Source: a virus
IMG/VR virus record: IMGVR_UViG_3300025326_000224
Span: 1-22,054 of that record
Reading direction: 5' to 3' (one strand)
Length of the DNA: 22,054 nucleotides
Notes under the pieces: generated by a model
The model's input: only the letters and a program-made list of their open reading frames with translations
What the model was told of the DNA's origin: nothing
Databases searched by the model: none
Part shown: piece by piece, positions 3,306 through 12,068 of the stretch
Numbering within the stretch: the first letter of the stretch is position 1
How the letters are laid out: every line of letters begins with the position of its first letter
Translations under genes and position numbers: made by a program

Positions 3306-3512
3306 ATGAGCATGATGGGATGCCGCTACTGCGGCGAGTTCCCTGAGAAACACTCGAGCCGGTGCCGCAGCGCCGTCTTCCGCGGCGGGCGCATCTGGCG
3401 GTGCCTGCGCAATCGTGGGCACAGCCGCGGCTGCAGGTACGCGGATGATGCACCGCGCGAGCGCGGACGGGCGCGGGCGGAAACGTTGACAGCGCCGGCC
3501 GTGCGGCCGTAG
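3306..3512 (+). CDS. small Cys/His-rich putative zinc-binding protein
   Basis: A 68-residue basic protein starting 4 nt after the MazG-like gene, with AAGGATG upstream. Cys6, Cys9, His16 and Cys20 form a C-x2-C-x6-H-x3-C pattern like a CCHC zinc knuckle or short zinc finger. Cys33, His39 and Cys43 may be a second, less regular site. The remaining tail is rich in Arg and Ala and could bind nucleic acid. The gene's final codons overlap the putative -35 and -10 elements of the promoter at 3486-3515. The start at 3306 was preferred over an earlier in-frame ATG at 3183, which lies inside the MazG-like gene. Specific function unknown. Confidence 0.55.
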   Translation: MSMMGCRYCGEFPEKHSSRCRSAVFRGGRIWRCLRNRGHSRGCRYADDAPRERGRARAETLTAPAVRP

Positions 3513-3515
3513 GGT
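3486..3515 (+). promoter_or_regulatory. putative sigma-70-type promoter for the replication gene
   Basis: A perfect TTGACA at 3486-3491 is followed after 18 nt by TAGGGT at 3510-3515, a TAnnnT -10 of the type common in high-GC bacteria. It lies at the very end of the Cys/His protein gene and points to the replication gene 100 nt downstream. The spacer is very GC-rich. Confidence 0.55.
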
Positions 3516-3520
3516 GAGCA

Positions 3521-3615
3521 CCGGGGCACCGGTCCTGCAGACCGGGGGCTGCTGTACGCTTCTCTCCAGCGGCCCACGCCCCGGTCTCCTCCGGGGGAAG
3601 CGAGAGGAGAGAAGC
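3521..3615 (+). promoter_or_regulatory. structured 5' leader that buries the ribosome-binding site
   Basis: The roughly 95 nt between the promoter and the ATG at 3616 hold three nested or adjacent perfect helices. Hairpin A is CCGGTC (3529-3534) with GACCGG (3540-3545) and loop CTGCA. Helix B is a 10-bp pairing of GCTTCTCTCC (3558-3567) with GGAGAGAAGC (3606-3615), which contains the Shine-Dalgarno sequence of the next gene. Inside helix B, hairpin C is CCCCGG (3579-3584) with CCGGGG (3591-3596) around loop TCTCCT, itself complementary to the AGGAGA at 3605-3610. An alternative pairing, CCGGGGC (3521-3527) with GCCCCGG (3578-3584), would break hairpin C. This looks like a translational switch. 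Confidence 0.55.
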
Positions 3616-4491
3616 ATGCCGCGGAATCAGGCGCCGCACTTCAAGGTGCGATTCTCGGCGCAGAACCACTCCAAGCTCCGCGGCCTCTGGGATGATGACG
3701 CGCTACTGGCGATGTGGGTCAGAGCTGGCGTGCTGGCCATGGAGCGCTACGCCGACCGCACAGGCGACACCTGCCAATTGAGCCAGCGCGACCTGCTCCG
3801 GATTGCAGCCACCGAGCCCTTCGCGAATGCTCTCCGCAAGCTCCTCCGGCTGGTCGCTGCGACGCCGCTGCGAATCCGCTGCGGCTGCGCTGCGAAGGCG
3901 CTGGGAGAGCGCTGCGAGTGCGCTGGCTATTCGCTGACATTCCCTAACCTCGCGGAAAAGCAGTTCCCTCGCCGATCAGACGGCACCGTTAGGGAGGGCT
4001 CCGCCTCCGCCTCCGCCTCCGCCTCCGCCTCCAATACATCAGACCCCCATATAGGCCCCCACGAAACCGAGGCTCGACGCGCCCCCGGAGCCGCGCCTGA
4101 CGGCGCTCTCGCTGCCCGGGCCCGAGGGCCGAAGCCCCGGAAGCCGGACCCACGCATCGCCTCGGCCTGGACCGCGATGACCGAGGCCTTCACCGCCTGC
4201 GGCCGGGACCCGGCGCTCTGGCGCCTGACGCCAGCCCGGCAACGCGCGATCTCCGCGCGCCTCGCCGAGGGCTACGAGCCGGCGGACCTAGCCCTCGCCG
4301 TCCGCGGCTACCGCGCCATGCACGCCAGCAGATCGAGCAACGGCGACTTCGATCCCGAAGCCTACTTCGCGCCGGACACGATCCTCCGCCCCACGAAATT
4401 CGCCAGCTACGTCGAGGCTGCACGTCGCAGCGCTGCGCAGCAGGCGCCCAGGCGGGATCCAGATGCACCTCTCCCGCGGATGTACACGTGA
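3616..4491 (+). CDS. replication initiator / replisome-organizer-like protein
   Basis: A 291-residue two-part protein. The N-terminal 115 residues look like a winged-helix DNA-binding domain (LSQRDLLRIA near 55-64) with a CxC...CxC cluster (Cys89, 91, 100, 102) that may bind zinc. A disordered linker follows, containing a Ser-Ala repeat at about 129-139 and many Pro/Arg. The C-terminal part (about 180-270) has ARQRAISARLAEGY and PDTILRPTKFASYVEAA; a 'peTLFRPsKF..YL' ending is typical of phage replication proteins that load helicase. The start at 3616 has AGGAGAG at 3605-3611; the open frame continues upstream into the leader but lacks another good start there. The stop overlaps the next ATG (TGATG). 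Domain calls come from motif reading only. Confidence 0.65.
   Translation: MPRNQAPHFKVRFSAQNHSKLRGLWDDDALLAMWVRAGVLAMERYADRTGDTCQLSQRDLLRIAATEPFANALRKLLRLVAATPLRIRCGCAAKALGERCECAGYSLTFPNLAEKQFPRRSDGTVREGSASASASASASNTSDPHIGPHETEARRAPGAAPDGALAARARGPKPRKPDPRIASAWTAMTEAFTACGRDPALWRLTPARQRAISARLAEGYEPADLALAVRGYRAMHASRSSNGDFDPEAYFAPDTILRPTKFASYVEAARRSAAQQAPRRDPDAPLPRMYT
3998..4032 (+). repeat. hexanucleotide tandem repeat (GCCTCC)n
   Basis: Five uninterrupted GCCTCC units preceded by a degenerate GCTCC, coding for alternating Ser-Ala in the linker of the replication protein. Each unit adds two residues without changing frame, so copy-number slippage would alter only linker length. Confidence 0.9.
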
Positions 4492-5304: not shown

Positions 5305-5594
5305 TGGTGTCCACGGATCCAGCGCAGAAGCCCAAGCGCAAGCCGCCAGCCGCAGGCAGAGGGCGCAAAAAGGGCTCCAAGAACAAGGTTTCGCGCGACC
5401 TGAAAGAGATGATCTGGGGCGCGCTGGATCAGGCTGGCGGGCAGCAATACCTGCTAGAGCAGGCAGAGAAGAAGCCTGAGGCATTCCTGTCGCTCGTCGC
5501 GAAGACGATGCCGAAGGTGCAAGAGCACAGTGGCGAGACCACGGTGCGCGTGGTCGTGGTGACTGGAATCCCGTTGAAGGACGGGAACTTGTGA
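5298..5594 (+). CDS. putative terminase small subunit
   Basis: A 98-residue protein immediately upstream of the packaging ATPase region. It starts with a Lys/Arg/Pro/Gly-rich arm containing GRGRKKGSKNKVSRDLKEM, then a helical segment (IWGALDQAGGQQYLLEQAEKK) and a C-terminal beta-like stretch (TVRVVVVTGIP). This arm-plus-helix layout is often seen in short phage proteins encoded just before terL and assigned as small terminases, which recognise phage DNA for packaging. The start is GTG 5298, three codons before GTG 5307; neither has a good Shine-Dalgarno, and the first lies in the stem of an inverted repeat. An in-frame TGA at 5280 rules out a longer version. The assignment rests on position and general pattern. 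Confidence 0.6.
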   Translation: MPLVSTDPAQKPKRKPPAAGRGRKKGSKNKVSRDLKEMIWGALDQAGGQQYLLEQAEKKPEAFLSLVAKTMPKVQEHSGETTVRVVVVTGIPLKDGNL

Positions 5595-8497: not shown

Positions 8498-8770
8498 ATG
8501 GGCGACGCTGGCTCGACGATTGACGCGGTCAACCTGTTTCAGCGCGAGAAGCCTGGCGGCAAGAAAGCGCGGCATGAGGCTGGCACGTCCGCCAAGGAGG
8601 CTGAGCGCAGGCGCAAGCTGCAGATGAGGGATCGCGCGGCGACGCTCGAGTTCTCTGCTGAGCGTGCAGCCGAGGAGCAGCGCGCGAGGCGCTCCAGGCG
8701 TCTGCGTGGTGCGGCCTTGATGCTGGATCCTGTGACGGGCTCGACGGGCTCGAAGCTCTTGGGGGCGTGA
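8498..8770 (+). CDS. small pre-portal protein with C-terminal RGxA-LL-KLL motif (second of pair)
   Basis: A 90-residue charged protein ending LRGAALMLDPVTGSTGSKLLGA, which aligns with the C terminus of the previous protein: RG-x-A-x-L-L, a Gly-rich turn, then G-x-KLL-x-G. The N-terminal part is different (polar, then Lys/Arg/Glu-rich helix at about 20-65). It starts 3 nt after the previous stop, and its TGA shares a base with the portal ATG. The shared tail suggests that the two adjacent proteins bind the same partner, perhaps the portal or the packaged DNA. Family not firmly recognised. Confidence 0.6.
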   Translation: MGDAGSTIDAVNLFQREKPGGKKARHEAGTSAKEAERRRKLQMRDRAATLEFSAERAAEEQRARRSRRLRGAALMLDPVTGSTGSKLLGA

Positions 8771-11868: not shown

Positions 11869-12068
11869 GAGGCTGCATCTCGGACAAGCCTTTGGGCCCC
11901 GAGGTGCAGGATGAAGTAGCGCCCCTTCTGGCGCGGATAAGCCCATCTCAGGGGTCCCCGCAATGCCAGGAGGACAAGCGCAGGACTCATCGCGGCAACC
12001 CGCCTGAGTGGGTTTGACGCTGAGGACGCAACGCATGTTGCGCTCTCGCTCAACCTACGAGGCGGAGA
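11869..12068 (+). promoter_or_regulatory. 200-nt structured leader of the capsid gene
   Basis: No convincing gene here. It contains three foldable elements: GCGCC (11919-11923) with GGCGC (11930-11934); CCCA-T-CTCAGG (11942-11952) with CCTGAGTGGG (12003-12012), 10 bp with one bulge; and CGCAAC-GCAT-GTTGCG (12027-12042), extendable on both sides by TGAGG/TCTCG with one mismatch. No U-run follows any of them. A 14-codon ORF begins at ATG 11963 but has no clear ribosome-binding site. The capsid Shine-Dalgarno (GGCGGAG) follows at 12060-12066. Confidence 0.45.

Follow-up and report, generated by a model that had tools for sequence, protein, structure and literature searches.

The locus and its probable replication gene

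The window, i.e. the whole stretch of 22,054 nucleotides that was analysed (IMGVR_UViG_3300025326_000224, positions 1 to 22,054), is a 22-kb virus contig with 65% GC, on which a podovirus-type set of methyltransferase, helicase, terminase, portal, capsid and tail genes is found. The region of interest lies on the plus strand and comprises the following features:

3486..3515, plus strand: possible sigma-70-like promoter (TTGACA 3486-3491, 18-bp spacer, TAGGGT 3510-3515)
3513..3615, plus strand: intergenic leader of 103 nt, lying between the TAG that ends the upstream gene (3510-3512) and the ATG of the replication gene
3605..3609, plus strand: Shine-Dalgarno (SD) sequence AGGAG, read from the sequence, 6 nt 5' of the ATG
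3616..4491, plus strand: replication gene of 291 codons for a protein with an N-terminal domain, a Ser-Ala linker and a C-terminal domain
3855..3942, plus strand: within the replication gene, eight direct repeats of 11 bp (core CGCTG) that are putative origin iterons
3941..4032, plus strand: conserved block adjoining the iterons, with an inverted repeat TCCCTAAC (3941-3948)/GTTAGGGA (3988-3995) and CTCCGC tandem repeats at 3999-4032

The first-pass annotation had called 3616-4491 a replication gene, an assignment that is backed by position and by the internal iteron array, with profile matches that are weak: the product matches PHROG 428 (replication initiation protein) with an E-value of 9e-4, and scores 18.2 bits against Pfam Phg_2220_C (PF09524), under the cut-off of 27. 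The AlphaFold model of the N-terminal domain had a mean pLDDT of 40 and was unusable. In a related phage, L001 (IMGVR_UViG_3300025164_000339, 29 kb), a DnaB/AAA-type ATPase gene follows the counterpart of this gene, which also speaks for an initiator. Taking the profile matches, the position and the iteron array together, the gene probably encodes an O-type phage replication initiator.

The iteron array gives the highest lag-11 autocorrelation of the window (0.67-0.76 at 3855-3942, compared to a mean of 0.26), a value reached by no codon-shuffled version of the gene. Since 11 is not a multiple of three, the array is not a protein repeat; the CTCCGC tandem repeats that follow encode the Ser-Ala linker. 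At the same place in L001 (about 1683-1770), between conserved blocks, there are likewise eight 11-bp repeats, with a core of GA(C/T)(A/G)TC and some mismatches, and the block at 3941-4032 is about 90% identical in the two phages. This arrangement suggests a putative replication origin in the style of lambda O, the recognition sequence of which was swapped between the window and L001. In ori-lambda, the iterons also lie in the middle of the initiator gene (PMC7466680), but the repeats of the window differ in having an 11-bp period, eight copies and a core that is not the same in the window and L001. In a survey beyond these two phages, 9 of 13 further initiator genes gave a significant lag-11 signal (codon-shuffle P <=0.005), some of these signals being dominated by other periods of low-complexity linkers. 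O-like phage initiator genes with 11-bp repeats around or before the linker are many and include those of L007 (about 8557-8600), L008 (about 1325-1390), L013, L014 and L018, among others.

Upstream of the leader, the perfect TTGACA reported in the first-pass annotation was confirmed at 3486-3491, one of eight copies of this hexamer in the window. The promoter as a whole did not hold up as well: the -10 candidate at 18-bp spacing, TAGGGT, matches the consensus at only 3/6 positions, for which reason a consensus promoter scan did not report the pair, and L001 is devoid of this -35 and has TGATACGAT (TGn plus TACGAT) at the -10 position. The spacer contains an inverted repeat, CGGCCG-TG-CGGCCG (3496-3509), a possible operator that is missing from L001. 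An operator made of iteron cores was also considered and rejected, as the CGCTG array is absent near the promoter and the lone reverse copy, CAGCG at 3567-3571, is lost in L001. No intrinsic terminator was found in the leader.

Predicted fold of the leader and accessibility of the ribosome-binding site

At lowest energy, 3519-3610 is predicted to form a three-way junction (P1, P2 and P3), followed by a separate hairpin (P4) over the SD sequence. The elements of this fold, and two possible pairings of the P3 loop, are (all on the plus strand):

3520-3527 (ACCGGGGC) with 3578-3585 (GCCCCGGT), plus strand: P1, base of the junction, in the minimum-energy folds of the window and L001, invariant
3529-3534 (CCGGTC) with 3540-3545 (GACCGG), plus strand: P2 hairpin of the minimum-energy fold, loop CTGCA
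3546-3554 with 3567-3575, plus strand: P3 hairpin, with a 12-nt pyrimidine-rich loop containing GCTTCTC (10-nt loop in L001)
3586-3591 (CTCCTC) with 3604-3609 (GAGGAG), plus strand: P4, anti-Shine-Dalgarno hairpin spanning 3586..3609, probability >0.98 in both phages
3557-3562 (CGCTTC) with 3597-3602 (GAAGCG), plus strand: possible long-range pairing of the P3 loop, 6 bp, seen in the sequence
3558-3564 (GCTTCTC) with 3609-3615 (GAGAAGC), plus strand: possible long-range pairing of the P3 loop, 7 bp, extending to 10 bp in the window

The minimum-energy fold is identical in the window and in L001, the leader of which lies at L001:1377-1477, and the probability that the SD sequence is unpaired is at most 0.005 in each. 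The long-range pairings of the P3 loop are absent from these nested folding predictions. In composition-preserving shuffles of the loop, the 10-bp complement of the window arises with P = 0.002 and the 7-bp complement of L001 with about 0.1; the 6-bp complement (GAAGCG, 3597-3602), which is identical in both phages, is matched by 0.08 of the shuffled loops.

This fold differs from the one proposed in the first-pass annotation, in which a 10-bp helix was thought to cover the SD sequence. The two strands, 3558-3567 (GCTTCTCTCC) and 3606-3615 (GGAGAGAAGC), are indeed fully complementary, but the probability of the helix is about 0 and it is 5.0 kcal/mol costlier than the best fold; in L001, a deletion has shrunk it to 7 bp and it is 8.1 kcal/mol costlier. 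Similarly, a hairpin with a TCTCCT loop (CCCCGG-TCTCCT-CCGGGG) can form, but lies outside the best fold, where its anti-SD strand is used by P4. The pairing of 3521-3527 with 3578-3584, which had been regarded as a mutually exclusive alternative, is perfect and even reaches 8 bp with 3520/3585; rather than an alternative fold, it is P1 of the main fold.

One could still imagine a two-state switch with the 10-bp helix as its OFF state and the P1-P3 fold as its ON state. The complementarity is real and, as given above, improbable by chance, and the RNA of the window is predicted to adopt the 10-bp helix once the 5' strand of P1 is removed. However, the SD sequence is hidden in both states, the helix is the less stable of the two by the energies given, and the truncated L001 RNA does not adopt it, all of which makes such a switch quite improbable. 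More generally, the SD sequence stays buried in every modelled state, among them each 5' truncation of the window RNA up to about 3566, and an ON state was not found among the modelled states. Thus, the calculations show a closed ribosome site and not an on/off switch, and the claim of a translational switch was not borne out, as the helix proposed to act as the mask is not the one predicted and has not kept its full length in L001.

Two specific ways of opening the site were modelled and rejected. An RNA thermometer does not fit the predictions, in which the SD sequence stays closed with an unpaired probability of <0.01 at 45 C and 0.03-0.05 at 65 C. Coupling to upstream translation, through a ribosome that halts at 3512 and opens P1, was dismissed on the grounds that truncations removing P1 leave the SD sequence of the window unpaired with a probability of <0.01. 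In L001 RNA from which P1 was cut off by 5' truncation, the corresponding value rises to 0.19 at most.

In order to judge these structures against the composition of the genome, folding energies were compared to those of shuffled sequences, as the first-pass annotation had suggested. The outcome depends on the segment. For the 68 nt of P1-P3 (3519-3586), z was -4.85 to -5.1 and none of 1000 shuffles was equally stable, a z-score flattered by the selection of the segment after folding, whereas the 123 nt at 3518-3640 gave the weaker z of -1.95, with 6 of 200 shuffles equally good. In L001, P1-P3 had a z of -3.67 to -4.1. The fold is biased towards the plus strand in both phages (-4.85 on the plus versus -3.92 on the minus strand in the window; -3.67 versus -1.96 in L001). 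When 1100 segments of 68 nt were scanned, two other sites, 12001-12068 and 5521-5588, also came out at z -4.1 to -4.6 on recheck; with a few other sites reaching z of about -4 or below, P1-P3 belongs to the most structured parts of the contig, but is not unique. The first of these sites (plus strand, z about -4.6) adjoins the start of the major capsid gene (12069) on its upstream side, and the second (plus strand, z about -4.5) lies near the 3' end of a small gene preceding the terminase gene. Opening the SD sequence of the replication gene costs 3.6 kcal/mol, which ranks 19th of 24 gene starts in a range of 0.2 to 10.3 kcal/mol elsewhere. A buried SD sequence is thus ordinary in this 65% GC genome, and the replication gene is not among the most closed.

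These numbers bear on the simplest rival explanation, according to which there is no regulation at all: the leader would be a GC-rich spacer that folds by virtue of its composition and is common to the window and L001 owing to a recent recombination of the replication module. The ordinary opening cost and the modest z of the whole leader are in line with this explanation, whereas the stability of P1-P3, which exceeds that of every shuffle, is not.

Conservation of the leader in L001

Searches for further homologues of the leader in phages, plasmids, GTDB genomes and several viral-contig scans found L001 alone. The structural genes of L001 differ from those of the window, and the leader and the start of the replication gene are common to both. 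The gene directly to the left of the leader is a different one in L001, and the next gene outward is homologous. Between the two phages, the leader is about 94% identical, with 6 differences in 103 nt when a 2-nt deletion is counted once. The replication CDS diverges beyond about codon 15-20, its N-terminal part being 48-54% identical. Among degenerate codons for the same amino acid, 13/43 were changed in the upstream homologous gene (Fisher P 2e-4 against the leader) and 18/32 in codons 13-103 of the initiator gene. Hence the general claim of the first-pass annotation, a structured leader with a buried SD sequence before a probable replication gene, stands: P1-P3 is more stable than its shuffles, and the leader is more conserved in L001 than neighbouring synonymous sites.

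The differences in L001 are distributed as follows:

5' of P1, plus strand: one base
P3 loop, plus strand: one base, and the 2-nt deletion
P4 loop, plus strand: one base
3553/3568 (P3) and 3590/3605 (P4), plus strand: U-A to U-G changes

No pair of the fold is broken in L001, all differences being either unpaired or U-A to U-G, whereas random changes plus a 2-nt deletion leave every pair intact in 4% of trials. The covariation count from these two sequences is 0 double-sided, 2 one-sided and 0 broken.

That the differences spare the pairs of a plus-strand-biased fold speaks against the absence of regulation. On the other hand, the block of homology sets in at the stop codon of the preceding gene and fades out within the CDS like a mosaic junction, and the conservation of the leader could reflect recent exchange of the block. 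We regard an unregulated spacer as rather unlikely, though deserving serious consideration.

The leader might also act as DNA, its inverted repeats, four ACCGG boxes that occur in both orientations, serving as the operator at which a repressor would control the replication gene, with RNA folding as a by-product. The inverted repeats are present in the DNA, the promoter spacer is palindromic, and ACCGGGGC is unique to the leader within the window. Yet the box is not repeated at other promoters, and the two changes at paired sites preserve pairing, as G-U pairs, in the plus-strand RNA alone and not in DNA, the symmetry of which does not favour them; we therefore consider an operator very improbable. 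Even further from plausible is translation from GTG 3514, by which the leader would be an N-terminal extension of the protein: the frame of the window is open from 3514, but an SD sequence is missing before this position and the 2-nt deletion throws the matching ATG of L001 out of frame.

In both of the related podoviruses for which the beginning of the initiator gene was read, it overlaps the preceding gene and a leader is absent. The leader of EBPR podovirus 1 showed no excess folding stability.

Candidate translational control and its parallels

The whole window gave no match to Rfam 15 families at the gathering threshold. A hairpin ribozyme was rejected, since the Hairpin-meta1 score in the window (17.6 bits versus a threshold of 40) is at chance level and was not reproduced in L001, which carries a better CTGCTGTC match than the window, yet is without a Hairpin-meta1 match. 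No tRNA-like element was found.

Our tentative preference, which stops short of even confidence, is that the 103-nt leader is a cis-acting structured RNA that keeps translation of the initiator low or controllable. Repression without a named opener was given the highest weight because every computed state is closed. The GC-rich three-way junction P1-P3 would fold first, and P4, beside this rigid junction, would hold the ribosome-binding site closed. The P3 loop may additionally pair with bases around the ribosome site, where pairing with GAAGCG, 5' of the SD sequence, could open the site by competition with P4 in the manner of repZ, and pairing with GAGAAGC, 5' of the ATG, would add to closure. 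The outcome would be a low or controllable translation of an O-type initiator, the gene of which carries the origin iterons. What was computed are the complementarities, a fold that is common to two phages and unusually stable, and a leader that is strongly conserved; we infer that the RNA forms in vivo, represses translation and is opened by something, be it the initiator, a host factor, a small RNA or the ribosome itself.

The precedent for such an opening comes from plasmids. According to PMC8383071, which cites Asano and Mizobuchi 1998, a pseudoknot upstream of the ribosome site of ColIb-P9 repZ activates translation of this plasmid initiator and an antisense RNA blocks it. If the leader worked likewise, the P3 loop and GAAGCG (3597-3602) would disrupt P4 and open the site, which would be kept shut by an RNA, antisense or other, that binds the loop. 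The 6-bp complement of the loop, just 5' of the SD sequence, is identical in the window and L001, and two cyanophages, described below, have a three-way-junction leader with a similar, covariation-supported pairing of the loop to downstream bases. Against this, 8% of shuffled loops would be expected to contain such a 6-bp match, and, given that the GAAGCG partner sits inside the P4 loop, a kissing interaction in which P4 persists is just as possible. Moreover, neither an antisense RNA nor an antisense promoter was detected; the consensus scan, which covers GC-rich promoters poorly, found no sigma-70-like promoter on either strand. We hold a leader activated by a pseudoknot to be unlikely.

The preferred reading, a repressive structured leader, can be compared to two known systems. 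Like the rep leaders of IncI-alpha/IncB plasmids (ColIb-P9 repZ and pMU720 repA), the leader of the window is a structured leader of an initiator mRNA with a hairpin loop that is complementary to bases near the ribosome site; unlike them, it is phage-borne and comes with no demonstrated antisense RNA, leader peptide or pseudoknot. It also shares with tisB mRNA, in which a standby site accompanies a stable structure over the SD sequence and a structured 5' element (PMC7708055), both of these structures, but a single-stranded standby region was not found in the leader of the window, and tisB is a chromosomal toxin mRNA. By analogy, the leader resembles the RNA control of plasmid initiators in function, and the likeness does not extend to evidence of membership in any family.

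The cyanophage leaders were encountered among relatives of a related initiator. In Cylindrospermopsis phage Cr-LKS3, the 97-nt gap before the O gene folds as a three-way junction, and cyanophage Cy-LDV1 has a diverged counterpart of this leader one gene upstream of O. The leaders in the two Cylindrospermopsis phages are:

L012:2905-3000: three-way junction plus loop-to-downstream pairing
L022:342-439: three-way junction plus loop-to-downstream pairing

Between Cr-LKS3 and Cy-LDV1, 8 of 25 pairs are compensatory, 1 is one-sided and none is broken, a count that covers the pairs between the P3 loop and the bases just 5' of the ribosome site; these pairs were counted helix by helix and matched to the structure by hand. 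The folding energies of the two leaders are unexceptional (z -0.9 and 0.1), and together with the matching by hand this makes the parallel a lead. The L012 leader had no Rfam match. These leaders have in common with that of the window a three-way junction of similar size and a P3 loop complementary to bases just 5' of the ribosome site, but there is no sequence similarity and the junction strands differ. A model built from the window and L001 does not detect the cyanophage leaders, so they do not belong to the same sequence family as the leader of the window. It is conceivable, albeit doubtful, that three-way junctions with a third loop pairing beside the ribosome site have evolved again and again in the leaders of O-like phage initiators. 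They would constitute an unnamed class of translational control, with one occurrence in the window phage and L001 and an independent one in Cylindrospermopsis phages.

For plasmids, the control of initiators by RNA is a classical theme, whereas accounts of lambda-like phages usually centre on transcription and repressors. No comparable leader RNA is known for lambda. The level of the initiator governs the timing and frequency of phage genome replication. If the reading proposed here is true, a phage leader with this role would be a testable parallel to the RNA control of plasmid initiators, and the iteron arrays beside the leader make the origin directly testable.
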